From: an uncultured Tolumonas sp.
Lineage (GTDB): Bacteria; Pseudomonadota; Gammaproteobacteria; Enterobacterales; Aeromonadaceae
NCBI RefSeq assembly: GCF_963556105.2
Contig: NZ_OY829945.1
Location: 260,501 to 324,500, forward strand
Direction: 5' to 3'
DNA length: 64,000 bases
Under the pieces are notes generated by a model. The model made no database searches, was not told where the DNA came from, and worked only from the letters and a program-made list of their open reading frames with translations. Of the stretch, positions 3,907-35,829 are shown piece after piece (positions within the stretch are counted from its first letter, which is position 1; each line of letters opens with the position of its first letter). Position numbers and translations under genes: made by a program.

Positions 3907-3913
3907 CTTAATC

Positions 3914-3944
3914 TATGGCATAGCAACATTGTTGATATGCCATA
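3914..3944. terminator. Hairpin between convergent lysP and the sulfotransferase gene
   Basis: TATGGCATA (3914-3922) pairs with TATGCCATA (3936-3944), and inside it CAAC (3924-3927) pairs with GTTG (3931-3934) around a three-base loop. The result is 13 pairs with one internal mismatch. It fills almost the whole 38-base gap between two converging genes, which suggests a bidirectional terminator, although the flanking T-runs are short. Confidence 0.5.
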
Positions 3945-4796
3945 TTAGTTATAACCAAGCTGCATCATGACTGATTGGCAACCAATTATTAGTTTATCTT
4001 GCAGTTCTGGTGCTATTTCTGTCTTGCCGCTACCTACAACACCTTTCCTGAAAAATGGTGCGGTACTTTTATCCAGTCGCTCCCGAAACCCCGAGTTCAT
4101 TTCTTGTTTTTGTAAATTCTTAAAGCTGCTTTGTTCAATTGCGATCTGTAATTGCTCTTTTGAGAAAAATAAACCTAATGCAGAAAACAATTGAGTAAAT
4201 TGGATGAGTGGATCTTTTCGCAAATCTTCATAGCGCACACGATGCACCGGAAAAGGAATATCTTTATTCATCCAGCTCAAGGTATGCGTATTCCATGAGC
4301 CATGATCTTCGGGTAAACGGCGTTTATCTTTTGCGGCTTTAAGCTGAGTTTTAATGAGCTGATCGGGTGTCAACATGGCGGTTAATCCCTCTTCATGCGT
4401 CAGACCAAAATGTTTGCTGTAAGATGGTAAAACATCAAGTGGGTGGCGCACGATGTGGATTGCAGCTTTAACTCGCTCGGAAGGAAATATGTATTCACCA
4501 TCTTGGTTTTTGCGCAACATATCGTGCGTTTTAAGAAATACAGTGTCAGTTTCATTCTCAAGGGCGAGGCGATAAAAATCGGGAAGGAAACAGTCCGTTG
4601 ACTCTCGACTTAGGTCACTGGCTTCCCATGGCATGAATTGATCAAATGAGAGGCGCTTGTCGGTCTTGAATCCGCCAACAATAATTTCGTTGATAGATAC
4701 AGGTGCTTTTTCCGGATACAGCAAGTTGGACAATAAGATCCGCAACCAAGTATTGCCAGATTTTGGGTAGCTAGCTAATAAGATCATGTTATTCAT
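3945..4796 (-). CDS. PAPS-dependent sulfotransferase in the lasso-peptide cluster
   Basis: Cytosolic-type sulfotransferase, 283 residues. The 5'-phosphosulfate loop is YPKSGNTWLR (10-19). KTHD (89-92) carries the likely catalytic His91. The 3'-phosphate-binding segment is VRHPLD..PSYS (116-127, Arg117 and Ser125). RYED is at 188-191 and the C-terminal RKG.VG loop at 250-255. All elements for PAPS binding and sulfuryl transfer are present. The start overlaps the kinase stop by 8 bases, so it is last in a cyclase-kinase-sulfotransferase operon. By context the acceptor should be the lasso peptide. The predicted core has no Tyr, so a Ser hydroxyl or the phosphate added by the kinase are the candidates (inference). 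Confidence 0.85.
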   Translation of the reverse strand: MNNMILLASYPKSGNTWLRILLSNLLYPEKAPVSINEIIVGGFKTDKRLSFDQFMPWEASDLSRESTDCFLPDFYRLALENETDTVFLKTHDMLRKNQDGEYIFPSERVKAAIHIVRHPLDVLPSYSKHFGLTHEEGLTAMLTPDQLIKTQLKAAKDKRRLPEDHGSWNTHTLSWMNKDIPFPVHRVRYEDLRKDPLIQFTQLFSALGLFFSKEQLQIAIEQSSFKNLQKQEMNSGFRERLDKSTAPFFRKGVVGSGKTEIAPELQDKLIIGCQSVMMQLGYN

Positions 4797-5637
4797 GGCA
4801 AAAATGCGCCTCTATTAATTCAGCGACAGTTTGTGGTGACATCGTTGTATCAATCACTAAACGGTGCACGGGGAAATGGTGAGCAATGTGAGCAGCAAAC
4901 TTGAAATGCACGGCAGCCTTATTTAATCCGCTAATTAATGGCGGCCGAAATGTATGCAAACGGGTTAATCCAAATACCTCTCCACCAGTCACTGAATGCC
5001 ACCCAGATGTGATAACTTCTTCGTCTTTCCTCGGCCGAACTAATTCCACAATTGAACGTACCGGTAATGCATCCTGACAACTTGGCGCAGGCCAGAGTAG
5101 TTTATTTTTCAAGCCAACCGAAAGGCTTAGTTTGGGAGCATCAACGGCCAATTTTTCACAACTATCGGGCCATAAGCGAATCGATTGGCTGGCCGGGTGC
5201 ACAACCAACTGATTGTTCTCTAAGGTTAACCGACTGATATCGTCATTCAGCAATGACCATCCATTTTGGCATAAGGCGGCTGCGGTTGTGGACTTACCCG
5301 TACCAGAATGGGCGCAGACCAGAATTGCGCTATCCCAGCCCTTTTTAGTGAGTGCCGCAGCATGCAGCGGCAATTCATTACGCTGTAAGCTAAGTGCGGC
5401 ATAGGGGGTTGAGAGCAAGAAGTGTTGTAGCACCAGCGGGTCTATACCTTCATTAAGCGGGAATATCTCAACACTTGTGCCATTTTGAACATTAAATTCA
5501 GCAATAGAAGGAATACGTATCCACATCGCATTTTCTTTCATCTGCCAATGGGTTTGCTCGTGACGTAATGGGCCTGATAGGGGGTGGCTTTGTGAGATTA
5601 CGTTTATCTCACAATCATGAAAAGGTAACGTAAACAC
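4789..5637 (-). CDS. HPr-kinase-like lasso peptide kinase
   Basis: Kinase of the HPrK-related family found in paeninodin-type lasso clusters, where it phosphorylates the side chain of the C-terminal Ser of the precursor. With the start chosen here (282 residues) it shows LPLHAAAL with His92, a Walker A loop AHSGTGKST (109-117) and an LLNDD motif (about 129-133) typical of the HPrK fold. The start is a GTG at 5637 with AAGGAA six bases upstream, 10 bases after the cyclase stop. An ATG at 5709 would give 306 residues but overlaps the cyclase by 62 bases and has no clear ribosome site. The precursor in this cluster ends in Ser, as this enzyme class requires. Confidence 0.85.
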   Translation of the reverse strand: MFTLPFHDCEINVISQSHPLSGPLRHEQTHWQMKENAMWIRIPSIAEFNVQNGTSVEIFPLNEGIDPLVLQHFLLSTPYAALSLQRNELPLHAAALTKKGWDSAILVCAHSGTGKSTTAAALCQNGWSLLNDDISRLTLENNQLVVHPASQSIRLWPDSCEKLAVDAPKLSLSVGLKNKLLWPAPSCQDALPVRSIVELVRPRKDEEVITSGWHSVTGGEVFGLTRLHTFRPPLISGLNKAAVHFKFAAHIAHHFPVHRLVIDTTMSPQTVAELIEAHFCHE

Positions 5638-5647
5638 AATAAATTCC

Positions 5648-7561
5648 TTAATCGCTGAGCGTTGCTTGCCAATGTTGCTGTGCATTTTCAATAAACAGGC
5701 AGATATCAAATAAGCGGTGTAGCGAACTCGCCGTCAAGCGTACCCCGAGTCTGGAGGTTGCTTCTGAAAGCGAAGCATCAATGGCCTTGATATCAAAAAG
5801 TTGTTGAATGGCGTTGTTTTCTCGTAAGCGCTGCCATGTTGACAGATAGTGGGCTTTATCTCGGATGATCCAATAGCCCTCATCGGGTGCTTGTTCGCCG
5901 CGTCGAGTGCGCCAACGAATGCTGTCGGGCACGAAACCTTCGCCCAGTAAACGTGCTTGCAAACGTTCAAAACCAAGACCTACAAACGCCTCGGGCGGGT
6001 AAGTGAGCAACTGCTCGATGAGGGCGCGATCGGCAAATGGGTCGGTCATCAGCACCCCAAACTGTTGCAAAAAATCAGGTTTATAAACGGGTGTTTCGCT
6101 TAATAAAAAAGCGCAGCGATCAGCCCATGCTAACGGTGGTTTGCTTGGCCACCTGAAATCAATCTTTTCGCGCCACTGCTTGGAGAGCCAAGAAGGCATC
6201 AATCCATTCGGAATAGTATTTTCTGACTGTGATTGGCGTTTTAATAATGGGGTTAAACCACTCATATGCGACAGTTGCTTGGCCAAATGAGTCATTGAAC
6301 ACGGTGTTTGTGCGGCCAGATGTTGCAACGCCCACCGCCAATGCCCTTGAGGTAAGAGTCGTGCTAGGCCACCATTGCCAGCATAACTCAGAGAAGCATT
6401 ACCTTTTCCGCCGGTTAATATAATGCGTTGCGATTGTACCGCCGCAGAAGTGGCAATTTCTTGTAACCACCAACAATTGGCTGTGTTGCGAACGGGTGTC
6501 CAACTGGTGAGATGCTGGGCAGATAAATGATCGAGTACACAGGAATGGTGGTTTTGAATACGCACATGCCGAATATTCGGATGCAATGCGGCTAACTCTT
6601 CCGTTAATGCCCACTCATCGCCATCCCAGTTTGGGCGTTGATAGAGGTTCTCTGCATTCGTTGAGGCGGGTGAAGAGGTGTAACTGACCAGTGTTTTCTC
6701 TTCATCAGCCAAAAAACGGGCGGCATAGGCGGTCGCCAGCGAAGAGTCCAACCCACCCGATAAAGTGCTGCCAACAGCTTGATTGGAGCGTAGCAATGAT
6801 TTCACTGCTGCTTCAAAGGTTGGTTTTAGTGCGGCCGCGTAATCTCTTGGCTCGCGGAGATAAACCGAATGCTGTTCGGGGGGCTGCCACCAGCGCGCTA
6901 GGGTTTGTTTGCCGCTATGTTCAAAAGACAGCATATGCCCCGCGGGCACATGCTGAATACCTTGCCACGGGTCGGCTTCGGGAAAACGAGCCGTGAGCAT
7001 GGTTAATAAGGCCGCGGAGTTGATTGTTCTGAGGGCGGGAATCTGGGTGAGCAGCGATGCACGTAGTGTGCTGACGACTAAATTGTCGCCATCTTGATAG
7101 TAATAAAGATGAGTATGCGAAAGATGGTCAACGGCAATGTGTAATGTTTGAGAGCTGATGTGCCAAGCGATGAGGGCAAAGTCACCGTAGATTCGGTTTA
7201 GCCCCGCTTTTCCCCATTGATACCATGCATGTGCCACTATCTCCGTATCGCTCACATCATCATTGTTAAGGCCTAATTGTGAGATCAACGCTGCACGATT
7301 ATCTAATCTGGCAAACCCAGCAATTACCCAATCACCCATCACATAGGGCGCATGTTCGAAACGATCTTCCGGCAATAACGGATGAGGCGAACTGACCAAA
7401 TAAGTGTGTTGTTCGGCAGAATGCCATTGTCGAATGGTGCGCTGCGATTGCAGTGATGCGTTTAATGCATGGCATTCGAGCGATGATAAGGGGGTTGATT
7501 TACGATGGGCAAAAACCAGCATACGATGTTCCGTTATCCGTAACTGCTCGCAGTATATCAT
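5648..7561 (-). CDS. Lasso peptide cyclase, asparagine-synthetase-like
   Basis: Lasso macrolactam synthetase (C protein), 637 residues. The N-terminal part resembles an asparagine synthetase glutaminase domain (ARLDNR at 84-89, GDFA at 126-129) but lacks the Cys2 nucleophile, as lasso cyclases do. The C-terminal synthetase domain has the ATP pyrophosphatase loop SGGLDSS (268-274). The enzyme adenylates the side-chain carboxylate of the core Asp and closes an amide with the new N-terminus after leader removal. First gene of a leftward operon with the kinase and sulfotransferase, divergent from the PqqD/ABC operon; both promoters must share the 78-base gap. Confidence 0.92.
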   Translation of the reverse strand: MIYCEQLRITEHRMLVFAHRKSTPLSSLECHALNASLQSQRTIRQWHSAEQHTYLVSSPHPLLPEDRFEHAPYVMGDWVIAGFARLDNRAALISQLGLNNDDVSDTEIVAHAWYQWGKAGLNRIYGDFALIAWHISSQTLHIAVDHLSHTHLYYYQDGDNLVVSTLRASLLTQIPALRTINSAALLTMLTARFPEADPWQGIQHVPAGHMLSFEHSGKQTLARWWQPPEQHSVYLREPRDYAAALKPTFEAAVKSLLRSNQAVGSTLSGGLDSSLATAYAARFLADEEKTLVSYTSSPASTNAENLYQRPNWDGDEWALTEELAALHPNIRHVRIQNHHSCVLDHLSAQHLTSWTPVRNTANCWWLQEIATSAAVQSQRIILTGGKGNASLSYAGNGGLARLLPQGHWRWALQHLAAQTPCSMTHLAKQLSHMSGLTPLLKRQSQSENTIPNGLMPSWLSKQWREKIDFRWPSKPPLAWADRCAFLLSETPVYKPDFLQQFGVLMTDPFADRALIEQLLTYPPEAFVGLGFERLQARLLGEGFVPDSIRWRTRRGEQAPDEGYWIIRDKAHYLSTWQRLRENNAIQQLFDIKAIDASLSEATSRLGVRLTASSLHRLFDICLFIENAQQHWQATLSD

Positions 7562-7639
7562 TGTTACTTGTGATAAATTTGTGGCTAAGTTGTAAATTTA
7601 ACGACTCAAACCGTGTTTTATAACGAGAGGGAAAAGACT

Positions 7640-7903
7640 ATGTTGATCATGCGAAATCCGGATGTCCCTTCAACTGAAATGAATGGTGAACATGTGGTGA
7701 TGGACCTTACGTCAGGTAAATATTTCAGTTTACAAGGAACGGCGGGCGTTATCTGGCAGATGTTGATTGCACCGCAAACAGAATTGGAATTGATAGCTCA
7801 GTTAGCAAAACAATATGAGATTGATGAAGCAACGTGCCAAAATGATACGCGTCCATTTCTCGATCAATTACAAGCAAAAGGCTTAATTGTTCAACGTGAT
7901 TAG
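7640..7903 (+). CDS. PqqD-like leader-recognition protein (lasso B1)
   Basis: Small (87 residues) PqqD-family RiPP recognition element. It shows the usual VVMDLTSGKYFSLQGTAGVIW core (about residues 25-45), a winged-helix fold that binds the precursor leader and presents it to the peptidase and cyclase. The ATG at 7640 is chosen because it follows a GAGAGGGA site by seven bases; an upstream in-frame GTG at 7613 lacks one. It overlaps the ABC gene by 17 bases or fewer. In split-B lasso systems it acts together with the transglutaminase-fold protein encoded at 9652-10134. Confidence 0.9.
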   Translation: MLIMRNPDVPSTEMNGEHVVMDLTSGKYFSLQGTAGVIWQMLIAPQTELELIAQLAKQYEIDEATCQNDTRPFLDQLQAKGLIVQRD

Positions 7904-9701
7904 CTTATTTCGGCAACTAGGCATTTGGGGGGGGAATACCCGTTGGGGAACTCGGCAAGTTTTTGCTGTGGCACCGAAACAGGCGACCTGTTGGTTGATC
8001 GTGTTATTTATTAACGCCGGTTTGCCTTTTGCTTTTTTGGCATTGTTACATCGCTTTTTACAAGCGCTGGAATATAAGCAAACCGAACAACACCTGTTGC
8101 CATTACTGTTTGTACTGGTGTCGATGTTGCTGCTCATGCCGCTGATGCAGCAAGCTAAATTATGGCTACACAGTCGTTTGGCTGAAAATCTGCAAGCAAC
8201 ACTGCAAGATCGTATGCATCAGGTTATTTTGTCATTGCCGTATGGTGAATTTGAACAAGCACGCACACACGATCGCATTCACCAAGTGAAAGCCAATATC
8301 GTGACGCAACCGATGTTGTTATTAGAGCACACCGGTTTGTTATTACAATCTGGCTTATTTTTAGTGGCGATGGCCAGTTCATTTGTGATTTGGCGGCCAG
8401 AACTTTTGGTCAGCTTGGGCGGCGCGTCTGTCGTTATGTTATTACTCGGAGGCTATCAATCATACCGACGTGTGCTCTCTCAACGACAATTAACACGCTT
8501 ACAACGAGAGGTCTTTTACCATAGCCATGTAATGACCGATCGTCAGTTTGCTGCCGATGTGCGTCTGTTTGGGTTGTCTGATTTTTTCCGTCAGCGTTTT
8601 TTAAACGCGCAACAAGCAGTGCATCAACTGCAACGCAGTTTAGATATAGAGCAGTGGTATTTTGCGATTGGCTCATCGATCTTATTAGTTGCGGGGCTCT
8701 TAGGATGTGGCTATCTGCTCTATCTCGATTGGCTAACAGGCCATCTTTCATTGTCGGATATTGTCATTGCAGTGCAGTCGCTATGGTTGGCGAGTCGGAT
8801 GTTGGGACAATTAGTTGAAAGCGCGATTAAAGTCACCCGAGCGGGTCTCTTTCTTGGCGAGGTGCGTGCATTTTTGACCACCTTCGCGCTAAAAGAAAAG
8901 ATACCATCAGTGCACTCTACAGTTGATGCATGCCATCAGGCGGAACCACCATGTAGTGATCATGCATTGCCCGCCATCGAGTGTCGGCAGGTCTGTTTCA
9001 GCTATCACCACAATCAAACAAAAGCGGTGGATCACTTAGATTTAACCATCCCGCATGGGCAGATCTGCTCCATTATGGGGAATAACGGTGCCGGTAAATC
9101 GAGTTTGTTAAAATTATTAGCGGGATTATATCAACCCGATGAGGGGCAAATTCTCTTATCTGGTAAGAATATAACGCTGCTGACTGAAGAAGAACGGCTG
9201 ACCCAGATCACCTGCATGATGCAAGATGCCGCTCACTTTCAAGCCTCTTTCGCCGAGAATGTTAGTGTTGGTGAGCAAATCGATATCTCTCGATTTTTAG
9301 CTGCCATCCAAACGGCGGGGGCCGATGAAGTTGCCGATAAGTTGCCAGAGCGAGAACACGCATTGCTGGGGCGATTATTTAAAGGCACCGAATTAAGTGG
9401 TGGTGAATGGCAACGGGTGACGTTGGCTCGATCATTATACCGTCAGGCTTCGGTGGTGTTGCTCGATGAACCCACCAGTGCACTTGATGGCTGGTCGGAA
9501 CAAGATTGGTTTGCGCGGCTGCGTGCTTGGGCCAATGGGCGAACAGTGGTGGTGGTTACGCATCGTGTTACGACTGCGATGCAGGCGGATATGATCCACA
9601 TTATGCAAGAAGGGAAGATCGTAGAAAGTGGCGACCATCAACAATTAATTGCTATGAATGGTCTATATCAAGCGGCGTGGTCTCATCAGGGAGATTCGTA
9701 G
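7887..9701 (+). CDS. ABC transporter, lasso peptide exporter (D protein)
   Basis: Fused permease-ATPase half transporter, 604 residues. An N-terminal membrane domain with about six helices (to about residue 330) is followed by the nucleotide-binding domain: Walker A GNNGAGKSS (398-406), signature LSGGE (503-507), Walker B/DEPTSALD (from 527) and a THR H-loop. It resembles MsbA/McjD-type exporters, so export of the mature lasso peptide and self-protection are likely. The start is uncertain: TTG at 7887 or GTG at 7896, both inside the PqqD gene. Its 3' end overlaps the convergent peptidase gene by 50 bases. Confidence 0.9.
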   Translation: MFNVISLFRQLGIWGGNTRWGTRQVFAVAPKQATCWLIVLFINAGLPFAFLALLHRFLQALEYKQTEQHLLPLLFVLVSMLLLMPLMQQAKLWLHSRLAENLQATLQDRMHQVILSLPYGEFEQARTHDRIHQVKANIVTQPMLLLEHTGLLLQSGLFLVAMASSFVIWRPELLVSLGGASVVMLLLGGYQSYRRVLSQRQLTRLQREVFYHSHVMTDRQFAADVRLFGLSDFFRQRFLNAQQAVHQLQRSLDIEQWYFAIGSSILLVAGLLGCGYLLYLDWLTGHLSLSDIVIAVQSLWLASRMLGQLVESAIKVTRAGLFLGEVRAFLTTFALKEKIPSVHSTVDACHQAEPPCSDHALPAIECRQVCFSYHHNQTKAVDHLDLTIPHGQICSIMGNNGAGKSSLLKLLAGLYQPDEGQILLSGKNITLLTEEERLTQITCMMQDAAHFQASFAENVSVGEQIDISRFLAAIQTAGADEVADKLPEREHALLGRLFKGTELSGGEWQRVTLARSLYRQASVVLLDEPTSALDGWSEQDWFARLRAWANGRTVVVVTHRVTTAMQADMIHIMQEGKIVESGDHQQLIAMNGLYQAAWSHQGDS

Positions 9702-10134
9702 ATCCTCGTGGATAAGTCGCAATAATCTGATAATCGTCAACTGGCCCACCCAATACCACTTCTCTTTCAATCGAGACCCATGCATGGGCGGCAAAGGTGT
9801 TTTGCTGGTCGCGTTTCACTCCGATAAATAAGGTGTGCGCTCTTTGTTGCCGCGTTAAAAACACACTCAGTGTTAATGCTTGCTCTAAGCACAGCGCTCG
9901 CCACCACACGAGTGCGGCGATTTGCTGAATGCGTTTTATTATTTGTTTAATGTCTGTTTGGTTGCGAGAGGTAATGCTCGCGTCAAAAGGCGAAAACTGA
10001 AATAACCGTTGAGAGGGTTGGTATTTGGTTTTTAAGCGCATTTTGGCCAGCAGCAGTGTTATGACAATGATCTGATATTGTTCTGCTCTGGGTAAGCAAA
10101 GAAAACGCCATAACCGAGTTAAAAATCGCCGCAT
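9652..10134 (-). CDS. Lasso leader peptidase, transglutaminase fold (B2)
   Basis: Small (160 residues) transglutaminase-like cysteine protease of the lasso B2 type, which cuts the leader from the core. The catalytic Cys82 sits in RALCLEQAL and His117 in FAAHAWV, followed by the family GGPVDDY segment, whose Asp residues may complete the triad. It lies 15 bases downstream of the nucleotidyltransferase-like gene in a leftward operon. It needs the PqqD-like protein for leader binding, which is encoded in a different transcription unit. Confidence 0.88.
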   Translation of the reverse strand: MRRFLTRLWRFLCLPRAEQYQIIVITLLLAKMRLKTKYQPSQRLFQFSPFDASITSRNQTDIKQIIKRIQQIAALVWWRALCLEQALTLSVFLTRQQRAHTLFIGVKRDQQNTFAAHAWVSIEREVVLGGPVDDYQIIATYPRGSTNLPDETTPLDIDHS

Positions 10135-10149
10135 AAATTAACTCCCCTG

Positions 10150-11323
10150 TTAATTGCTATGTAATTGAGTGCGAGTTCGATGCCAGCGAAATACGAGTCT
10201 TGGTAGTCGCAACCACGGGTACAGCCACTGTTGATTTGCTTTAAGTTGCAGTTCTTCAATGTCATTTGATGCATACAAGCAACGGGTTAGCCAAGAGGAG
10301 AACTGTTCTTTCATGCGATAGCGCTGATGTAAACAACGCTGATAGCGTAAGATGCGTAAACGGTGTGATAGCGGAAATTTGCCTGTAATTTCAGGGTAGT
10401 TGCCATCGGCTAAAAAACGTATTGCTTCATTCGCCAAAAATTGCGCTTGCTTGGTTACGGTCAAATTTAAACTGCTTATTTCTGGCAGCGGGAATTCAGG
10501 CAATAGCCATGTAATCAGTAATAGCACCTGCACAACCTGATCATGCATGTTGAGTTTTTGCATGAGCGGCAGGCTTTCTTGCCAGATAGCAGGGTTGCGT
10601 TCACTGATGGTCAGAATGTCGCCGAGCCATTTTAGCCGAAACCAATGGTGCCGCGCGCCATGTGAAATCAGGTAGAGGAATTCCGCTGGCGACACCGTTG
10701 TTGCTGGGAACGGATGTTTCCACAGCGGTTCGAGCGACGGCGAATGCACGGTTTCGATACGCCAATGCAACTCGACAATGACGCGATTGTTGGGGTGTTG
10801 AAACGTCAGATGCCAGAAATGCCGCTCAATTAACCGATGTTGTGTTGGGTCGAGTGCAAACGCCTCTTCCAGCACAAAGCTGAGCGAGAGTAGTAATGCG
10901 GCGGCGGCCCATAACTCGTTCCGTGTCACTAACAGGTCGAGATCTTTGCTGTGCCGATAGGCAGGGGTCATGGTAAATGCGCTGGCTTAATGCAGGCCCT
11001 TTCAGCAGTGATAACCCAATATTCGCTGCCTGAAACGCCTGTGTAATGCGCTTGGCTTCTGCCATCAGTTGCAGTTGGGTTAAAGTTTGCCGCTGCGCTT
11101 TTTGCTGCAATTTTGGCCAGAATGCTCCGAGCAATCGAGCGCCTGTGTCATTATCAATGATGCGGGCCGCGAGCCCCCATAAACGGTGATCTTGAATGGC
11201 TTGCCAGTTTGTGGCTGGTGAACTGGCCAGTGCCAGCAACTCGTTGAGCTTGGTCTGCTGTTGCTGAGGGTGAATGCTTTGCCAGCAGCAAAGGGTGGCC
11301 AATTGTAATGCCGTTGTGGTCAT
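10150..11323 (-). pseudogene. Nucleotidyltransferase-family protein, frameshifted (lasso accessory)
   Basis: Two overlapping reading frames form one protein of about 390 residues of the uncharacterised nucleotidyltransferase family often found in lasso clusters. The first frame (from 11323) gives LLKGPALSQRIYHDP; the second (to 10150) continues with AYRHSKDLDLLV. Joined, these give the family's KGPAL...R..DLDLL nucleotidyltransferase core. Removing one base from the four-G run at 10964-10967 restores the frame exactly. It is either a real one-base insertion that inactivates the gene or a homopolymer read error. The role in lasso clusters is unproven; tailoring of the phosphorylated peptide is a possibility. 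It is first in the operon with the leader peptidase, divergent from the precursor. Confidence 0.8.
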
Positions 11324-11355
11324 ATAGGTGCACCATGAATTTCATTAACATCGAT

Positions 11356-11382
11356 ATTACAATTTTTGCAGAAAAGTGTAAT
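11356..11382. promoter_or_regulatory. Inverted repeat in the precursor/nucleotidyltransferase divergent promoter region
   Basis: ATTACA (11356-11361) and TGTAAT (11377-11382) form an inverted repeat with half-sites 21 bases apart, about two helical turns. It lies in the 118-base gap between the divergent precursor gene and the accessory operon. It could be an operator, but six-base half-sites can occur by chance. Confidence 0.25.
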
Positions 11383-11441
11383 AGTGAACTGAGTTCGGCA
11401 GAACGATGGCTGATAAACAACGCACGAAGCAAGGAGAGAAA

Positions 11442-11588
11442 ATGAATACTCAGCAGCAAGAGATTAACGTTATTCAGCACGAAAACCAATGGCAAGCACC
11501 TACTCTGGTCGAGTTGGGTGAAATTAGCAATGAAACCCAATTTTCCGGTGGTCACGGTGGCGATTTTTCCGGTATGGCGGTGTCATAA
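11442..11588 (+). CDS. Lasso peptide precursor
   Basis: A 48-residue precursor starting at ATG 11442 behind AAGGAGAG; a longer in-frame ATG at 11406 has no ribosome site. The leader fits the lasso recognition rule with aromatic Trp17, Pro20, Leu22, Gly26 and Thr32: W-x2-P-x-L-x3-G-x5-T. With Thr at position -2, cleavage after Gln33 leaves the core FSGGHGGDFSGMAVS. Asp is at core position 8 (Asp41), giving an eight-residue Phe1-Asp8 macrolactam and a seven-residue tail. The core ends in Ser, the residue phosphorylated by paeninodin-type kinases. No Gly at core position 1 is unusual but tolerated in some lassos. It is monocistronic, and its stop directly abuts the convergent ohrR stop. Confidence 0.88.
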   Translation: MNTQQQEINVIQHENQWQAPTLVELGEISNETQFSGGHGGDFSGMAVS

Positions 11589-16156: not shown

Positions 16157-17041
16157 ATGAAAGGATCTTCACTGTTTCGGCGTCGCACGAAAACTGTCAC
16201 TACGGTCAGCGTCATGCTGCTGCCTGATCATCTATTTCTGGCCATTGCCGGTGAGCCCCCAGTGTTTGTTCGTCAGCCTATCCCATTAGGCGAATCCTGG
16301 CCCGTGGTGCTGGCGGCGTTATTCCGCGAAAAGAGAATTCTCAACACTAAAGTCCGGGTCGTATTAGATAGCAGCCAATATCAGCAGTTGTCGATAGAAC
16401 GCCCCGATGTACCGGCAGAGGAACTACCGGGCGCTTTACCTTGGGCGATCAAAGACTTTACCAGCGAACCGGTGACGCAACTTGCCGTTGATTATTATGA
16501 TAGCGTAACGAATCCGCAGGCACGTCCGCGATTGCAAGTTGTGTGTACGCCAAAAAGCCGTATTCAAGAGTGGCAGAAAGCCCTGCAATCAGTGGCAGAG
16601 CTGGAATCGGTGCTGATTGATGAACTCGCACTGACCGCGTTATTTGGTGAAAAAGCCAAAGTGGAAGTGTTGTTATATCAGTTGGCTGAGCGCGATTTAT
16701 TACTGCTGGCTGTCTATAAAGGCCAACTGTGTTTTAGCCGTGTGTTACGTGGTTTTATGCCGTTAGTTCAACTTCCGTCAGAGCAATGGCCTGCCGCCTT
16801 ACTCGATAACTTGATGCTGGAAATGCAGCGTTCTTTTGATTATCTGGTTAGTCAGTTAAAACTACCGGAAGTGGCGAATATCAATGTAGCCATTAACACG
16901 CTCGATTCCGCCGAGTTGTTATTACAGACACTCAATCGCTATTTTGGTGTGCCGACTCAACTGATGAAAATCGCGGCTAAAGAATCGAATATGGAATTTC
17001 TGCCGGTGTATGGTGCCTTGCTGGAGAGCCAACCGGTATGA
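16157..17041 (+). CDS. mshI: MSHA biogenesis protein MshI (PilM-like)
   Basis: First gene of the MSHA pilus locus, 294 residues. MshI is a PilM-like actin-fold protein on the cytoplasmic side of the pilus assembly platform. Supporting blocks are LPWAIKDF near residue 95 and LDNLMLEMQRSFDYLVSQL near 218-236, with a hydrophilic, TM-free sequence. The ATG has no obvious ribosome site. The stop overlaps the next gene by four bases (ATGA). Unlike Vibrio, no mshH precedes it. Confidence 0.88.
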   Translation: MKGSSLFRRRTKTVTTVSVMLLPDHLFLAIAGEPPVFVRQPIPLGESWPVVLAALFREKRILNTKVRVVLDSSQYQQLSIERPDVPAEELPGALPWAIKDFTSEPVTQLAVDYYDSVTNPQARPRLQVVCTPKSRIQEWQKALQSVAELESVLIDELALTALFGEKAKVEVLLYQLAERDLLLLAVYKGQLCFSRVLRGFMPLVQLPSEQWPAALLDNLMLEMQRSFDYLVSQLKLPEVANINVAINTLDSAELLLQTLNRYFGVPTQLMKIAAKESNMEFLPVYGALLESQPV

Positions 17042-17652
17042 AAAAACGCATCAATCTGTATTTACCGGAATTACATCCTAAACGTCAGTATTTGAGTTTG
17101 TCGCAAATCGCTTTGGCTTGGGGATGTTTGCTGGGGTTGTTATTACTGATCGGTGGTATCGTGCAGATCCTGCTGCAGCAAAGTGTGCATCAGCAGCAAA
17201 CATTACAACAGCAAATAAGCGAATTAGATGCGCAGAGCACAACGTTGAATGCACAATTACAACAACGTCATCCGGATGGTGCTTTAGCACGGGAGTTGAC
17301 GTTGCGCCAAGAAGAACTCCGCAGTAAACAGCAATTACAAACATATTTGAATCAAATCGGTGCGCTGCAAAACGAAGGTTTTTCCGCCTGGCTATATGAT
17401 CTGGCACAAGCGCGTTCACCGGGCATTGCACTGCAGTCATTCGATATTGAAAATAACCAATTACGTTTGCAGGGTGAAGCGGCCAGTAACGATGCTGTGC
17501 CGGCGTGGCTGAGTCATTTTGGTGATTATCCTAAATTACGTGATCGCACATTTTCGGCCTTACAGGTGCAACGCCAGAAATCGGGCGCATTGCAGTTTCA
17601 GTTAGAAAGCAAAGAGAACACCACCTCGGCAGCAGCGGGGACAGCTCCATGA
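17038..17652 (+). CDS. PilN-like MSHA assembly protein
   Basis: 204 residues with the PilN layout: short cytoplasmic N-terminus (MKKRINLYLPEL), one transmembrane helix (about 21-48), a Gln-rich coiled coil (about 50-105) and a periplasmic domain. The RINLYLPE start resembles the PilN INLLP motif that contacts PilM-like proteins, here MshI. In some genomes this part is annotated as a second MshI. Overlaps both neighbours by four bases. Confidence 0.85.
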   Translation: MKKRINLYLPELHPKRQYLSLSQIALAWGCLLGLLLLIGGIVQILLQQSVHQQQTLQQQISELDAQSTTLNAQLQQRHPDGALARELTLRQEELRSKQQLQTYLNQIGALQNEGFSAWLYDLAQARSPGIALQSFDIENNQLRLQGEAASNDAVPAWLSHFGDYPKLRDRTFSALQVQRQKSGALQFQLESKENTTSAAAGTAP

Positions 17653-18293
17653 TTCGAACCACATGGCAACGCTGGTCGGAAAAAACGGCTCAGTTAAGCA
17701 CCCGCGAGCGGTTGTTAATGTTATTAGTCGGTTGGGTGATTTTGGGGTTCCCATTTTATTCTTGGTGGTTAGAACCTACGCTGTTGCATTGGCAACAGAC
17801 TAAGCAGCAGATCCGTGAGCAGACGGCACAACAACAGCAAACCACCGCGGCATTGGAAGTATTGAAGGCCCGGTTGCAGCAAGATCCTAATCTGGCTGTG
17901 CGTACGGAATTACAAGCCACGAACAGCCAATTACTGCAGCTGGATGCCTTTCTGGAAACCCAGACCGGCGGCTTGATTCCGGCGGCGCGGATGGCGCAGA
18001 CATTGCAACAAATGTTAGTACGTTCCGGAAAATTGCAATTACAGTCGTTAACGTCACTAAAACCAACGCCGTTATTGCCAGAAAAATCCGCGGTTAACTA
18101 TTACCGGCATGGGGTAAAACTGGTACTGCAAGGGCGCTATACGGATATCTATGCCTATCTGCATGCGCTGGAAGGGTTACCACAACATTTTTACTGGCAA
18201 ACGTTGCACTATCAAGTGGGGTTATACCCACAGGGTACGGTGGAAGTGATCTTATACACATTGGGTGACAGTAAGGAGTTTATCCGTGGTTGA
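17649..18293 (+). CDS. mshJ: MSHA biogenesis protein MshJ (PilO-like)
   Basis: 214 residues: N-terminal cytoplasmic stretch, one transmembrane helix (about 23-41), a coiled coil (about 47-90) and a small periplasmic ferredoxin-like domain, as in PilO/GspM proteins. It should pair with the PilN-like protein in the inner-membrane alignment complex that links the motor to the secretin. Translationally coupled to mshK. Confidence 0.88.
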   Translation: MIRTTWQRWSEKTAQLSTRERLLMLLVGWVILGFPFYSWWLEPTLLHWQQTKQQIREQTAQQQQTTAALEVLKARLQQDPNLAVRTELQATNSQLLQLDAFLETQTGGLIPAARMAQTLQQMLVRSGKLQLQSLTSLKPTPLLPEKSAVNYYRHGVKLVLQGRYTDIYAYLHALEGLPQHFYWQTLHYQVGLYPQGTVEVILYTLGDSKEFIRG

Positions 18294-18633
18294 GTTAGTG
18301 TCACGGTATTCATTACTGCGTTGTGTTTTGCTGCTCGGCTTGGTGTTGAGTGGCATAGTCCGAGCTGATGAATTACCCGATCCTACGCAGCCGTTAACGA
18401 CGGTTTCGGCGGCTAATTCGACGCTGACAACAGCCAGTCAGTTACCCGTATTACAAAGCATTATTTATGGCCCTCAGCAACGTAAAGCGGTGCTGGATGG
18501 GCATGCCTGTCATGAAGGAACGCTAGTTGGGCGTTATCGTGTACAGGCAATCTATGCTGATCGCGTAGTGGTGGAGGCTGATGGAGTTCGGCACACACTG
18601 CGTTTGTTTTCTCATAAAGTCAGGTATGAATAA
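18286..18633 (+). CDS. mshK: MSHA biogenesis protein MshK (PilP-like)
   Basis: About 115 residues with a signal peptide (cleavage near IVRA/DELP) and a small periplasmic domain beginning with the pilotin-like LPDPTQPL segment. MshK corresponds to PilP/GspC-type connectors between the inner-membrane complex and the secretin. The GTG at 18286 is chosen because AAGGAG lies seven bases upstream; it overlaps the mshJ stop. Confidence 0.85.
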   Translation: MVELVSRYSLLRCVLLLGLVLSGIVRADELPDPTQPLTTVSAANSTLTTASQLPVLQSIIYGPQQRKAVLDGHACHEGTLVGRYRVQAIYADRVVVEADGVRHTLRLFSHKVRYE

Positions 18634-18636
18634 CGG

Positions 18637-20295
18637 ATGCTGAAATTAACATCGTTGACATTGGCACTGCTGCTGGCCGGATGCGTGAGCTATAACCATC
18701 CTGAGCCAAAAGAAGCAAAGCAGACGTTACGCCAGGTACAACAAGAACAAAACGCATTACAAGTACCGGATGAAGTGCAGGCTGATCTTGCGCCTTCAGC
18801 TTTTCCGACCACCACTGCTGCGCCAGTTGTCAATGAGCGGCGTTTCCGCGTGTCGGCCAAGGACGTTTCGGCCCCGGAATTTTTTGCGTCATTAATGCAA
18901 GATGATCGCTACAGCGTGGCGGTACACCCGGGTGTCAGCGGTTTAATTACGCTGGATTTGCGGGAAGTCACGCTGCCGGAAGTGTTGCAAACCGTAGCTG
19001 AAATGTATGGTTTTGATATTCGCCGGGTCGGTAACATTTATCATGTGTACCCTGCGGAGCTGAAAACCGAAACCTTCAGTGTTAACTATCTGATGATGAC
19101 CCGTGACGGGCAGTCCCGCACAGCGGTGAATACCGGTGCTATTTCCCAGTCGAAAAATAATGGTTCTACTTCAACCGGTTCCAGCGGTAGTAATAACAAC
19201 ACCAACTATAACAGTTCCGGTACAAATAGTAGTTCCTCGACCAATGGCACTCAGATCGACACTGATACACGCTCCGATCTCTGGGTTGAGTTACAAAAAG
19301 CCCTGATCGGTCTAATAGGAAATGGTGAAGGCCGTGTGGTGGTGACCAACCCACAAGCTGGGTTAGTGACGATCAAAGCCATGCCGAGTGAACTAAAAGC
19401 GGTGCGGGAATTTTTACAAACCTCCGAGCAGCATCTGAAACGTCAGGTCATTCTGGAAACTAAAATTCTGGAAGTGAAACTGAGCGAAGGTTATGAACAG
19501 GGGGTGCAGTGGGATAAGTTTAATATCTGGAATGGTAAAGCGCTGATGACCGCATCATCACAAGTCACTATGCCCACGACCAGTAATACTATCGCCACGG
19601 CATTAGGTGGTGGTGCCAGCTTTACCTTGTCGGAAGGGAACTTCAATACGGTTGTGAATTTGCTGAAAACACAGGGTGATGTAAATACTTTATCCAGCCC
19701 GCGAGTAACGGCGACTAATAATCAAAAAGCGGTAATTAAAGTGGGTAACGATGAATATTTCGTCACCGGTATATCATCGACTACCCAGTCGAACACCACC
19801 AGTTCTTCGACTAGCCCGGATATCGAACTGACACCGTTTTTCTCTGGCATCGCATTGGATGTCACACCGCAAATTGATGATGACAATAACGTGTTGTTGC
19901 ATGTGCATCCATCAGTCATTGATATCACCGAACAACAGAAGAAAATTGATTTGAGTGGCTTGAACGGAAGCTCGACGGCAACCAGCAGTACGGTGACCTT
20001 GCCGATGGCGTTTAGCAATATTCGTGAGTCCGATACCGTGGTGCAGGCAAAATCCGGTGACATCATTGTCATTGGTGGTTTGATGCGCACCAATAAAGAA
20101 CAACAGGTGAGCAAGGTGCCTTGGTTGGGGGATTTACCGGGCGTGGGCGAATTGTTTACCAACAAAAAAGATGTCACCAGCAAAACAGAATTGGTGATCA
20201 TGATGAAACCACAGGTGGTGAATGCGGATACTTGGCAACAACAGTTACAACGTTCCGAGCAGTTGCTGGAAAAATGGTATCCAACCCAGAGGTAA
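18637..20295 (+). CDS. mshL: MSHA outer-membrane secretin MshL
   Basis: Secretin lipoprotein of 552 residues. It has a lipobox LLAGC with Cys16, an N-terminal STN/N0-type domain (about 75-140), a Ser/Asn/Thr-rich low-complexity loop (about 178-205), N-domain repeats and the C-terminal secretin barrel with VVTNPQAGLVTI, LSSPRVTATNNQKAVIKVG and SGDIIVIGGLM...VPWLGDLPGVGELF. It forms the gated pore for pilus passage through the outer membrane. Only three bases separate its stop from mshM. Confidence 0.95.
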   Translation: MLKLTSLTLALLLAGCVSYNHPEPKEAKQTLRQVQQEQNALQVPDEVQADLAPSAFPTTTAAPVVNERRFRVSAKDVSAPEFFASLMQDDRYSVAVHPGVSGLITLDLREVTLPEVLQTVAEMYGFDIRRVGNIYHVYPAELKTETFSVNYLMMTRDGQSRTAVNTGAISQSKNNGSTSTGSSGSNNNTNYNSSGTNSSSSTNGTQIDTDTRSDLWVELQKALIGLIGNGEGRVVVTNPQAGLVTIKAMPSELKAVREFLQTSEQHLKRQVILETKILEVKLSEGYEQGVQWDKFNIWNGKALMTASSQVTMPTTSNTIATALGGGASFTLSEGNFNTVVNLLKTQGDVNTLSSPRVTATNNQKAVIKVGNDEYFVTGISSTTQSNTTSSSTSPDIELTPFFSGIALDVTPQIDDDNNVLLHVHPSVIDITEQQKKIDLSGLNGSSTATSSTVTLPMAFSNIRESDTVVQAKSGDIIVIGGLMRTNKEQQVSKVPWLGDLPGVGELFTNKKDVTSKTELVIMMKPQVVNADTWQQQLQRSEQLLEKWYPTQR

Positions 20296-20298
20296 CCC

Positions 20299-21186
20299 GT
20301 GTATCAGACGCATTTTGGCCTGACTGAAACACCATTTGGTTTAACACCAAATACCGGTTTTTATTATGGTCTGCCTCCGCATGAAGAGGCATTACAAGTG
20401 TTGCGGGTGGCGTTAACCAGCGGTGAAGGCTTTATCAAAGTCACTGGTGAGGTGGGCACCGGTAAAACGTTATTACTGCGTAAATTTTTGAATGAATTGC
20501 CGGAAGATTACCAGGCAGCTTATCTGCCTAATCCGTGCCTGGAGGCTGAAGAGTTACGGCAAGCATTAGCAACAGAACTCGGTTTGGCACCTGGTACCGA
20601 TACACTGAGCCTAACCGATGCGATCCACCATCGATTGGTCGAGTTACGCCAGCAAGGCAAACAGATCGTATTATTGCTGGATGAAGCGCAGGCTTTATCT
20701 GACAAGGCGCTGGAAGCGATCCGCCTGTTTGGTAATTTAGAAACTGAATCGAGCAAACTACTGCAAGTGATTTTATTTGGTCAACCTGAGTTAGATCAGC
20801 GGCTGGCACAAGCTCATTTACGCCAGTTGCGCCAGCGTATTTCATTTTCTTATCGTTTACGCCCGCTATTGCCAGCAGAAACCAGTGCGTATCTGGCCTA
20901 CCGATTACAGGTTTCTGGTTATCGGGGTATGCCGCTGTTTAGTGGATTCACTGCGCGCCTGTTATGGCAAGCCAGTCGTGGAATTCCTCGTTTGATCAAT
21001 ATCTTAGCGCATAAGTGCCTAATGCAAGCGTATGGCCGGCATCAGATGCAGATCGGCGTGCGTGATGTATTTCGCGCCGCTCAGGATACCGAAGATGCGT
21101 CACCACCGGTGGCCTGGTTAGGCTGGGGGGCGGTGCTGATTTTAGCTGCGGTCGTGTTAGCAGGAATTGGGAGCCGGTTAGTATGA
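20299..21186 (+). CDS. mshM: MSHA ATPase MshM (ExeA-like)
   Basis: 295-residue AAA ATPase of the ExeA/GspA type. It starts YQTHFGLTETPFGLTPN, with Walker A GEVGTGKT (50-57), Walker B VLLLDEAQ (about 117-124) and a C-terminal transmembrane helix (about 272-292). ExeA-like proteins help insert or organise the secretin through peptidoglycan. GTG start at 20299; overlaps mshN by four bases. Confidence 0.92.
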   Translation: MYQTHFGLTETPFGLTPNTGFYYGLPPHEEALQVLRVALTSGEGFIKVTGEVGTGKTLLLRKFLNELPEDYQAAYLPNPCLEAEELRQALATELGLAPGTDTLSLTDAIHHRLVELRQQGKQIVLLLDEAQALSDKALEAIRLFGNLETESSKLLQVILFGQPELDQRLAQAHLRQLRQRISFSYRLRPLLPAETSAYLAYRLQVSGYRGMPLFSGFTARLLWQASRGIPRLINILAHKCLMQAYGRHQMQIGVRDVFRAAQDTEDASPPVAWLGWGAVLILAAVVLAGIGSRLV

Positions 21187-22325
21187 GTCTGATTAACCGT
21201 ATGCTGAAAGATCTGGATGCACAGCCAGCCAAAGCAGATATCGCACCAATCTACCGTCCAGCGGCTCGACGTTTGCCGGGATGGTATTGGTGGATTTTAT
21301 TATTATTGCCACTGTCATTATGGTTGTGGTGGCAGCCATTGCAGCAACGCTTACATCCTGCTGCGAGCACCACAAAAAAAATACAAACAGAACCGGTACC
21401 AGCCACTGCGGTGATTTCATCCGTTGTACCGCAGGCTACTTCATCTGCTTCTATCGCTGTGACTGCAAGTACGGCCAGTGTGGCGGCCCCCGTGGTTATT
21501 GCCGAACCGATAGCAAAAGCGCCGGAAACGAAGATTGTAAAAAAATCAGTAACACCGCAAACCGCAACTGGTCAGCAGAAATCAAAAAACACTCAGAAAG
21601 CGATCACCAAGCCGGAACAGGACGCGGCGCCGGTAGAGCCTAATCCAACGGAGACGGCGGAAAGCAGTGAGCCGTCAGCGATGTATGGCGCAGAGCCAAC
21701 GACAGAAGCTGAACCATTGGGGGAGATGCATGTTGAAGAACAAAAACTCTCTCCTGGCGAAATAGCGACACTCGAGCGGCGTAAATATCAGCAAGCGATC
21801 GCACGCCGGGATAATGCGGCAGCACAACAGGCACTGTTACAGGTGCTGGCGAATGATCCGTTGGACTATAACAGCCGCAAACAACTGGCGGCCTTGTATT
21901 ATGGTGAAAATCAATTAAGTGCCGCCCGAGATGTGTTGCAGCAAGGTATTACATTGATGCCGACCAATGCCGATCTGCGTTTACTGGCAGCCAGAGTGGC
22001 ACAGGCCATGGGAGATAAACAGGCCGCGTTGCAATCACTGGTGGCCATCTCACCCTCGGTGGTCAATAACCTCGATTTCTATGCTATGCGCGCCGCCTTG
22101 GCACAACAGCTGGGGCAAACCGCAGAGGCGGGTTATTCCTATCTGGCACTGACCCGCACGCAGCCAAATATTGGCCGTTGGTGGTTGGGTTTAGCCATCA
22201 GTCAAGACCAACGTGGTCTGCTGAATGATGCCAAACAAGCCTATCGTCGCGCATTAATGGATAACCAGCTGAGCGCAGCTTCCCGCCGGTTTGCCCAACA
22301 ACGCATTCAACATCTGGAGCCGTGA
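21183..22325 (+). CDS. mshN: MSHA biogenesis protein MshN (TPR)
   Basis: 380 residues: short N-terminus with MSLINRMLKDLDA, one transmembrane helix (about 31-50), a long Ala/Pro/Thr-rich linker (about 60-180) and three to five TPR-like repeats in the C-terminal half (from about 200). The topology places the TPR domain in the periplasm, where it may assist secretin assembly with MshM, by analogy to the ExeA/ExeB pairing. Confidence 0.88.
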   Translation: MSLINRMLKDLDAQPAKADIAPIYRPAARRLPGWYWWILLLLPLSLWLWWQPLQQRLHPAASTTKKIQTEPVPATAVISSVVPQATSSASIAVTASTASVAAPVVIAEPIAKAPETKIVKKSVTPQTATGQQKSKNTQKAITKPEQDAAPVEPNPTETAESSEPSAMYGAEPTTEAEPLGEMHVEEQKLSPGEIATLERRKYQQAIARRDNAAAQQALLQVLANDPLDYNSRKQLAALYYGENQLSAARDVLQQGITLMPTNADLRLLAARVAQAMGDKQAALQSLVAISPSVVNNLDFYAMRAALAQQLGQTAEAGYSYLALTRTQPNIGRWWLGLAISQDQRGLLNDAKQAYRRALMDNQLSAASRRFAQQRIQHLEP

Positions 22326-22326
22326 T

Positions 22327-24033
22327 ATGACGCAACCTCGTTTACGTATGCGGCTTGGTGATCTGTTAGTGGCTGAACGTATTATCAGTGCGGAACAGCT
22401 AGAATTGGCGTTGCAGCAGCAGAAACAGCATGGCCGGAAATTGGGTGCCACGCTGATTGAGCTGGATTTCATCGGCGAAGAACAGCTGCTGATGTTTTTG
22501 GCGCAGCAGCTGGATATTCCTTTTTTTGACCTGACGAAACTGACTATTCAACCGCAGGCCGTGCAGTTGATCCCGGAAGCCTATGCCCGCCGTTATCGCG
22601 CGTTAGCGGTGCATATGACCGCTGATTCGGTGACGGTCGCACTCTCAGATCCGGCGGATTTAGCGGCGTTAGATGTCTTGGCGCAACGGATACAACCACG
22701 GCAGATCAAATTGGCGGTGGCCCGCGAAAGTCAGTTGCTGGAGTTTTTCGATAAACTCTACCGGCGGACCCGCGAAATCGAAACCTTTGCAGAACAGCTG
22801 CATAACGAGTTTGAATCATCGGCACTCGATTTTGGCCCGGTGGATGCGATCACCAATGAAAGTGATGCCACGGTTGTCAAATTGCTGCGTTCCTTGTTTG
22901 AAGATGCGGTGCAAATGCGGGCATCGGATATTCATATTGAGCCGGATGAAAAAGTGCTGCGCATTCGTCAGCGTATCGACGGCACGTTGCAGGAAAACGT
23001 ACTCAATGAAACGCGTATCGCGCAGGCATTAGTCTTGCGCCTTAAACTGGTCGCCGGTTTGGATATTTCCGAAAAACGTCTGCCACAAGATGGGCGCTTT
23101 AATATCAAAGTGCGCGGCCATGATATTGATGTCCGTATGTCGACCATGCCGGTACAACACGGTGAATCGGTGGTTATGCGTCTGCTGGATCAATCGGCCG
23201 GGTTACTGACGCTGGAACAAACTGGTATGCCGCCGGATATCCTGACCCGGTTTCGCCAGCAGTTACAGCGTCCACACGGCATGATCTTGGTTACTGGCCC
23301 GACCGGTAGTGGTAAAACCACTACCCTGTATGGTGCGTTGTCAGAATTAAATTTACCGGGCAGCAAAATTATCACTGTGGAAGATCCGGTGGAATATCGC
23401 TTACCGCGTATCAATCAGGTGCAAGTTAATCCCAAAATCGGTCTCACATTCTCGGCGGTGCTACGTGCTACCTTGCGGCAAGATCCGGACATCCTGCTGG
23501 TGGGGGAAATGCGTGATGATGAAACTGTCGAGATCGGTCTGCGTGGCGCACTAACCGGCCATTTAGTGTTAAGTACGTTGCATACTAATGATGCCATCAC
23601 CAGTGCTTTGCGCCTGATCGACATGAAAGCGCCTGGTTATCTGGTGGCCAGCGGTTTACGTGCGATCGTCGCACAACGTTTGGTGCGGCGGATCTGTCAT
23701 AAATGTTCACAGCCTTATCAACCCGATGATGGCGAGCACAGTTGGCTGGAGCACTTATCCGGTGTTAACACCCGTTTGATGCAATTTAAAAAGGGTTCTG
23801 GTTGTCACAACTGTAACTTCACCGGTTATCAAGGCCGGATCGGTGTCTATGAATTATTGGAACTGGATCTGCCGATGATGGATGCCTTGCGCAGCAATGA
23901 CGCTGAAAGTTTTGCCCGTGCCGCGCGGGAAAGTAAAAATTACCGCCCGTTAGTGAATGTCGCGCTGGATTATGCCGGGCAGGGGATCACCTCATTAGAT
24001 GAAGTATTACGCCTTGCTGAAGTGGTGATCTAA
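22327..24033 (+). CDS. mshE: MSHA pilus extension ATPase MshE
   Basis: 568-residue GspE/PilB-type motor. The N-terminus carries two tandem MshEN units: the first starts RLGDLL (about residue 8) with ALQQQ, the second starts KLGATLIE (about residue 38) with FLAQQ. These match the RLG..L...L..Q motif that binds cyclic di-GMP in MshE. The ATPase has Walker A GPTGSGKT (324-331), Asp and Walker B boxes, and a zinc tetracysteine (CHKC about 457-460, CHNC about 493-496). Pilus extension is therefore predicted to respond to c-di-GMP. Start at 22327, directly after the mshN stop. Confidence 0.95.
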   Translation: MTQPRLRMRLGDLLVAERIISAEQLELALQQQKQHGRKLGATLIELDFIGEEQLLMFLAQQLDIPFFDLTKLTIQPQAVQLIPEAYARRYRALAVHMTADSVTVALSDPADLAALDVLAQRIQPRQIKLAVARESQLLEFFDKLYRRTREIETFAEQLHNEFESSALDFGPVDAITNESDATVVKLLRSLFEDAVQMRASDIHIEPDEKVLRIRQRIDGTLQENVLNETRIAQALVLRLKLVAGLDISEKRLPQDGRFNIKVRGHDIDVRMSTMPVQHGESVVMRLLDQSAGLLTLEQTGMPPDILTRFRQQLQRPHGMILVTGPTGSGKTTTLYGALSELNLPGSKIITVEDPVEYRLPRINQVQVNPKIGLTFSAVLRATLRQDPDILLVGEMRDDETVEIGLRGALTGHLVLSTLHTNDAITSALRLIDMKAPGYLVASGLRAIVAQRLVRRICHKCSQPYQPDDGEHSWLEHLSGVNTRLMQFKKGSGCHNCNFTGYQGRIGVYELLELDLPMMDALRSNDAESFARAARESKNYRPLVNVALDYAGQGITSLDEVLRLAEVVI

Positions 24034-24035
24034 GT

Positions 24036-25709: not shown

Positions 25710-25832
25710 TTTTGCGAATACTCACTTGTGTAATGATTTACGCATAAGATACAGTTAATTACCATGATATTAAGCCTGCATTATCTTCGCTGGCAAAATG
25801 AAATAACCAACAACTTATAGACAGGAAAAAGT

Positions 25833-26330: not shown

Positions 26331-26342
26331 TTGTAAGTATCT

Positions 26343-35221: not shown

Positions 35222-35226
35222 TCCAT

Positions 35227-35806: not shown

Positions 35807-35829
35807 CTTCAGATTACTAAGGCTGAACT

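Follow-up and report, generated by a model that had tools for sequence, protein, structure and literature searches.

The 64,000-nucleotide stretch of an uncultured Tolumonas sp. genome analysed here (hereafter the window) carries at positions 3945-11588 a complete lasso-peptide cluster, delineated from open reading frames and from Pfam and NCBIfam matches, in which the gene of a 3'-phosphoadenosine-5'-phosphosulfate (PAPS)-dependent sulfotransferase (ST) is located directly behind that of an HprK-like kinase (K). Through two surveys and a few extra loci, a total of 31 loci with a full-length sulfotransferase of this kind have been identified, and in every one (31/31) a kinase gene immediately precedes the sulfotransferase gene in the same orientation. 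The co-occurrence of the two genes elsewhere, which an initial annotation of this DNA had set as a check of its proposal, is thus found. We consider it probable, at roughly 60%, that the cassette makes a small lasso peptide, in which K would phosphorylate the C-terminal serine and ST would sulfate the same region of K's product.

The genes are arranged in four strand blocks, successively ST-K-C on the minus strand, B1-D on the plus strand, B2-N on the minus strand and the precursor gene A on the plus strand:

3907-11588, no strand: whole cassette, between a permease gene and the OhrR gene; site empty in 4/4 congeners tested
3945-4796, minus: ST, PAPS-dependent sulfotransferase, 283 aa; last gene of the C-K-ST unit; PF00685, 85.7 bits (cut-off 22)
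4789-5709, minus: K, HprK-like lasso-peptide kinase, 306 aa; start at TTG (5709) or at ATG (codon 9)
5648-7561, minus: C, lasso macrolactam synthetase (asparagine synthetase-like), 637 aa; PF00733 Asn_synthase, 63.5 bits (cut-off 21)
about 7640-7903 (reading frame opens at 7613), plus: B1, PqqD-like leader-binding protein (RiPP recognition element, RRE); PF05402, 71.7 bits (cut-off 23.4)
7887-9701, plus: D, ABC exporter, 604 aa; ABC_tran, 108.5 bits
9652-10134, minus: B2, transglutaminase-fold leader peptidase, 160 aa; NF033537 lasso_biosyn_B2, 67.1 bits (cut-off 33)
10150-11323, minus: N, nucleotidyltransferase-fold protein (NTP_transf_5), in two frames in the assembly; cut-off 31.2
11442-11588, plus: A, lasso precursor; alternative upstream ATG at 11406

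The gene set includes a cyclase (C), a leader peptidase (B2) and an RRE (B1), and every gene listed in the initial annotation, which had distributed them over four transcription units, was recovered in its place. The overlap of the kinase and sulfotransferase genes reported there measures 8 nt, and the C and K genes share up to 62 nt. With respect to the lasso-specific NCBIfam models, B2 is above the cut-off; C (NF033535, 168.6 bits, cut-off 525) and B1 (lasso_PqqD_Bac, 69.4 bits, cut-off 80) are below theirs, though both exceed their Pfam cut-offs.

An inserted cassette and the kinase-sulfotransferase pair

Of 75 genomes in the family, three contain a relative of K; the window's own genome is one of them, and the three belong to the same genus (3 of its 11 genomes). 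The eight genes are collinear in the two congeners, G070 (locus L011) and G066 (L010), whose ST is 94% and 83% identical to that of the window, respectively, and the gap between the matched ends of K and ST is -5 in all three congeners. Eight congeners lack K; in 4/4 of those tested the site is empty and the flanking genes directly adjoin. One of these flanks is an amino-acid permease gene (DeoR where the permease is absent), the other OhrR. Since they adjoin in congeners without K, the cassette occupies one site with sharp borders, with ST and K inside; its collinearity in two congeners, together with the empty site in four others, indicates a cluster beyond chance.

Both surveys used gene profiles seeded with the first loci. 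The first was anchored on K: one genome per species was scanned with an alignment of ten kinases, and 80 loci were kept as a sample of at least 113 confirmed ones (two genomes contribute two loci each, L051 with L056 and L062 with L073; L044 and L058 are counted, neither having an ST). A cyclase or B2 is present in 73 of the 80 loci, and ST in 18 (13 in Pseudomonadota, three among the four Bacteroidota loci and two unplaced). In the 18 Bacillota loci no ST of this kind was found within the flanks covered, with a profile that may miss other kinds. Together with the window, the two congeners and three plasmid loci, the survey yields 24 STs. Each of these (24/24) directly follows a kinase gene in the same orientation, the matched ends being -5 to 41 bp apart.

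The second survey was anchored on B2. Of 398 genomes from the phylum of the window, 45 matched at 60 places, leaving 59 loci after exclusion of the window's own. K is present in 31 of the 59 loci and a full-length ST of this kind in seven, each of the seven directly behind K on the same strand (gap -5 to 76 bp). ST therefore occurs in 7/31 loci with K vs 0/28 without it (Fisher p 0.011). Because many of these loci come from one genus, g121, with kinases lacking an ST, the test was also made with each genus and state counted once (p 0.026). Partial ST matches in L104, L111 and L143 stand outside the main count; with these genes counted too, the numbers are 8/31 with K vs 1/28 without K (p 0.027). 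On inspection, L143 encodes a sulfotransferase that is full-length but of a different kind. L104 and L111 each encode, close to a lasso B2 gene, a fused protein with a sulfotransferase-like stretch behind a different N-terminal part (L104:5180-6838, 552 aa; L111:601-2217, 538 aa).

The K-ST loci placed by name belong to Pseudomonadota or Bacteroidota. Where such a locus contains two kinases (L012, L045, L050, L111, L113), ST stands beside one of the two. The recurrence of the pair in both surveys rules out that it is peculiar to the window genome.

On a quick tree of the kinases, the presence of ST requires 11 changes vs about 28 in shuffles, none of 500 shuffles being as low. The tree has 126 rows, of which 124 are different (the overlapping L129 and L141 of one genome repeat one kinase); it leaves out L044, which shares its species with L015, and L058, which shares its record with L017, as well as matches below 690 nt or with E of 1e-10 and above. 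At least three changes are forced by well-supported branches; several branches are long and the details are unsure. The number of changes needed, including the forced ones, indicates a clustered distribution of the pair on the tree, with several gains or losses. Distances between kinases correlate with those between their STs, with r 0.88 for 31 pairs and 0.62 for the 17 less similar pairs.

On a Tistrella mobilis plasmid (L014:6143-9598), the K and ST genes share 4 nt, and two lasso-like precursors and a gene of the nucleotidyltransferase family are located nearby. A cyclase or B2 was not found in the 16.6 kb of this locus; the idea that its pair stands outside lasso biology is weakened by the two precursors. 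Weak relatives of K on plasmids amount to 12 records, nine of which were inspected, and relatives in viral contigs were not found.

Catalytic residues, precursor and proposed pathway

The sequence matches of K to HprK models are weak: 41.5 bits for HprK_rel_A (TIGR04352, HprK-related kinase A), whose cut-off of 200 is missed, and 20 bits for Hpr_kinase_C (cut-off 33.3). The closest solved folds to its AlphaFold2 model (predicted local distance difference test, pLDDT, 87.7) are HprK and phosphoenolpyruvate carboxykinase, with a TM-score to HprK of about 0.6 by target length and 0.34-0.37 by query length. K contains the His-Lys-Asp-Asp motif (His116, Lys139, Asp156 and Asp157), described as essential in lasso kinases from mutants (PMC9266682). 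All 31 kinases paired with ST share the P-loop Gly-x-Gly-Lys-Ser and the first Asp of the motif; 29 of them have the His and 27 the second Asp.

ST exceeds the PF00685 cut-off, keeps the PAPS and catalytic residues, and is the only PF00685 match in the whole genome. Lys12, Gly14, Thr16, Trp17, His91, Arg117, Ser125, Trp168, Arg188, Glu190, Glu232 and Phe249 (window ST numbering) are invariant in 31/31 K-adjacent STs; His91 is presumably the catalytic base and the loop of ST presumably the PAPS site. The top folds for the ST model (pLDDT 89.8) are SULT1D1, SULT1A and Teg12, with TM-scores about 0.65. An adenosine 5'-phosphosulfate (APS) kinase is encoded in the genome (E 1.6e-70), which makes a route to PAPS likely.

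The precursor A is composed of the leader MNTQQQEINVIQHENQWQAPTLVELGEISNETQ and the predicted core FSGGHGGDFSGMAVS. It fits the rules of lasso precursors, as had been proposed initially: the leader contains a W-x-x-P-x-L motif, Thr-Gln directly precedes the predicted core and thereby places Thr at position -2, and Asp8 falls within the ring-closing positions 7-9 (Asp or Glu), giving a predicted ring Phe1-Asp8 of eight residues. The two congeners are alike in these features. Recalculation of the core as a macrolactam gives 1393.572 Da, in agreement with the earlier value of 1393.57 for the unmodified lasso. The core has 15 residues, lacks Tyr and Thr, and contains three Ser (Ser2, Ser10 and Ser15). 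A remains below the cut-offs of the known precursor families benenodin (13.8 of 33 bits), subterisin (13.8 of 27) and lasso_leader_L3 (15.4 of 19).

The cores of the two congeners are LNNNTHGNDTILSGS and NNIFPGADAPSNMS. Among the three congeners, window included, the leaders are pairwise 58-76% identical; for the cores the values are 7-14% in the count from the N-terminal end and 13-36% in that from the C-terminal end. The window core agrees with the other two at 13-14% of positions from either end, the last Ser being included in the count from the C-terminus; those two cores agree with each other at 36% from the C-terminus. A conserved leader and enzyme set therefore carries very unlike cores in L010, L011 and the window. 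Tyr is absent from all three cores, and the C-terminal Ser is the sole hydroxyl position common to them. Lasso kinases are described as acting on the C-terminal Ser of the precursor and not on the threaded peptide (PMC8498205, PMC9266682), and such a Ser ends the predicted precursor in all three congeners. The C-terminal-Ser kinase of the initial annotation accordingly fits, with the lasso-kinase motif present and unlike cores all ending in Ser.

Hand-picking gave candidate precursors for 27 of the 31 K-ST loci; L021, L031, L055 and L125 offered no convincing one. Thirty of the 33 candidate peptides end in Ser, and 21 are without Tyr. The ring acceptor and the tail were assigned in 27 of the 33, six having no Asp or Glu at positions 7-9; another Ser, Thr or Tyr is present in the tail of 25 of these 27, all except the two Tistrella (L014) candidates. 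Near-identical candidate cores, GPSTF(S/G)SGQAAHVS, were observed at L012:9040-9126 (a Thalassobaculum plasmid) and L045:11060-11146 (Novosphingobium); both are without a ring-closing Asp or Glu, although a cyclase gene is present. The candidate cores of the K-ST loci L026, L038, L067 and L140 end in Tyr-Gly-Ser, where sulfation of Tyr would be possible, unlike in the window. A rule-based pick yielded cores in 42 of the 80 loci of the first survey, ending in Ser in 8/9 loci with ST, 14/15 Bacillota loci without ST and 5/18 other loci without ST.

The halves of N lie in different frames, 10150-10971 (67 bits) and 10826-11323 (44.8 bits), with the frame change falling between 10826 and 10971; an intact NTP_transf_5 protein, as in N of the pseudomycoidin type, is thus not encoded in the window as assembled. 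The initial annotation had correctly placed a nucleotidyltransferase-like gene here and missed its frame break. In both congeners, L010 and L011, N is a single open frame. The housekeeping genes maf and rng (RNase G) at 35098-37302 are split too, PF02545 over two frames and PF10150 over three. Because they are likewise broken, we suspect an uncorrected assembly indel in N, a true mutation or pseudogene being the alternative. Elsewhere in the window, at 16157-32417, a long gene run resembles a type IV pilus biogenesis cluster (MSHA-type), as judged from inspection of the translations only. The mreB of this genome shows 79% identity to its E. coli counterpart, in line with a gammaproteobacterial host.

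From the genes and their order, the catalytic residues, the folds and the K-ST linkage, we infer the following substrate, order of steps, acceptor and product. B1 would bind the W-x-x-P-x-L leader, K would phosphorylate the C-terminal Ser15 of the precursor, and ST, translated with K, would use PAPS to sulfate the C-terminal region of K's product. B2 would cleave after Thr-Gln, C would close the Phe1-Asp8 ring and D would export the peptide, while N, where intact, may add a further group to the phosphate. The most likely acceptor of ST is a hydroxyl of the short tail, before the phosphate itself and, last, a sugar on the phosphate.

Acceptors and alternative roles of the sulfotransferase

Several observations weigh against this pathway. 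Since its loci were chosen by K, the first survey informs about adjacency only and not about dependence on K. The ST profile favours the K-adjacent kind because it was seeded with K-adjacent STs only, and sulfotransferase-like genes of other kinds are found away from K, in L104 (without K) and in L111 and L143 (with K). In 15 less similar loci with a cyclase, K correlates with C as well as with ST (r 0.67 vs 0.62), which speaks for co-inheritance instead of a special co-evolution of K and ST; a closer co-evolution of K with ST than with C is not supported. A C-terminal Ser is just as widespread among Bacillota kinase loci that lack ST, and so speaks for the site of K, not for that of ST; moreover, it is missing from the K-ST loci L047 (core ending in Asn) and L113 (Val, Pro). 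Finally, phosphorylation is reported at Ser3 of a lasso core by BsfK, a kinase of this type (PMC10368454), and likewise at Ser3 of its core by LppK, the kinase of linear phosphorylated peptides (PMC13381572); the window core also holds Ser2 and Ser10.

An unlikely alternative is that ST modifies an ordinary Ser or Thr of the core (Tyr elsewhere) independently of K, the two genes being neighbours for joint expression only. The additional tail Ser, Thr or Tyr of 25/27 assigned candidates is consistent with this, as are the Tyr-Gly-Ser ends in L026, L038, L067 and L140, which could be Tyr-sulfated. However, a full-length ST of this kind is present in 0/28 K-free loci, the fused ST-like protein of L104 being different, and in the three congeners only the last hydroxyl position is common.

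Within the proposed pathway, K and ST might constitute a C-terminal capping module, in which K's phosphate accepts the sulfo group, or is required for it, to give a sulfo-phospho-serine end. We regard such a module as doubtful, and no less so the sub-case in which ST sulfates the phosphate on the C-terminal Ser to form a sulfo-phosphate (mixed anhydride) cap. The linkage of ST to K across loci agrees with the cap, as do the C-terminal Ser as the sole hydroxyl position shared by the congeners' cores and the two Tistrella (L014) candidate cores, which have no other tail hydroxyl. PAPS is itself a sulfo-phosphate anhydride, and sulfotransferases acting in reverse sulfate the 5'-phosphate of 3'-phosphoadenosine 5'-phosphate, which counts in the same direction. 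On the other hand, mixed anhydrides of this sort are labile, we know of no precedent for sulfo-phospho-serine in a peptide, and another tail acceptor is usually on offer (25/27 assigned candidates).

It is improbable that N adds a sugar to the C-terminal phosphate, like PsmN in pseudomycoidin, and that ST sulfates this sugar. Enzymes of the PF00685 type often sulfate sugars, and N is present in the window and intact in both relatives, which would suit such a role; a hexose addition dependent on an N homologue has also been reported (PMC8498205). Against it, N is broken in the window assembly and occurs in only 8/18 ST loci vs 42/62 loci without ST in the first survey (Fisher p 0.098), and in 4/7 kinase loci with ST vs 22/24 without ST in the second. 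On these counts, within the flanks covered, a requirement of ST for N is not supported, and ST does not appear to need N.

A passenger role for ST, or its involvement in making a different small molecule, is very hard to credit: no product is known, which would leave room for it, but the 8-nt overlap with K in the window, the gap of -5 in all three congeners, the direct adjacency to K in distant taxa and the position of ST inside the inserted cassette all speak against it.

Relation to known systems

A kinase and a sulfotransferase in lasso clusters are not new in themselves, and the kind of cluster is known but uncharacterised. Already in 2014, genes for HPr kinase and sulfotransferase were noted in some of the lasso clusters of anaerobes, their role being called unclear (PMC4289311); both kinds of gene occur in the window, and the passage concerned does not state whether they share one cluster or belong to separate ones. 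According to a review, which credits a 2016 paper, some lasso clusters of Firmicutes begin with a sulfotransferase gene (PMC8498205). In a Pontixanthobacter gene list, B2, nucleotidyltransferase, sulfotransferases, PqqD and asparagine synthase, kinds of gene also present in the window, have consecutive gene-cluster numbers; unlike in the window, the list names hypothetical proteins and no kinase, and the passages concerned discuss no function (PMC10040529). A tested sulfated lasso peptide was not found in the openly licensed literature examined, nor was a strict K-ST adjacency found stated there.

With the strict adjacency to the kinase, in 31/31 loci of Pseudomonadota and Bacteroidota where named, what had been a curiosity becomes an enzyme pair open to experiment. 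The concrete prediction drawn from these genes is that of sulfated, and probably also phosphorylated, lasso peptides, and the window core, with its 15 residues, three Ser and neither Tyr nor Thr, would let three substitutions settle the sulfation site.

The paeninodin-type clusters (PadeK, ThcoK, SyanK) resemble the window in B1, B2, C, D, an HprK-like kinase and a precursor ending in Ser, and their kinases share the His-Lys-Asp-Asp motif with K (PMC9266682). There are differences between them, relating to the gene order, the sulfotransferase directly behind the kinase in the window, the kinase sequences (25-26% identity of K to two aligned Bacillota kinases) and the precursor, which in the window reaches no NCBIfam cut-off. 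Pseudomycoidin (PsmK, PsmN) has in common with the window a kinase and a nucleotidyltransferase-like N; in contrast to it, the window has an added sulfotransferase, and its N is frame-broken in the assembly.

Teg12, Teg14 and StaL are among the closest solved relatives of ST by profile (Teg12, E 1.1e-23; fold rank 5). Unlike the window ST, they serve glycopeptide biosynthesis, Teg12 having been solved with the teicoplanin aglycone, and to our knowledge they have no link to a peptide kinase. A sulfated bacterial peptide is represented by RaxX of Xanthomonas, for which RaxST is the sulfating enzyme. The RaxX precursor gives rise to a sulfated-tyrosine peptide (PMC6637879); its acceptor is thus Tyr, a residue absent from the window core.

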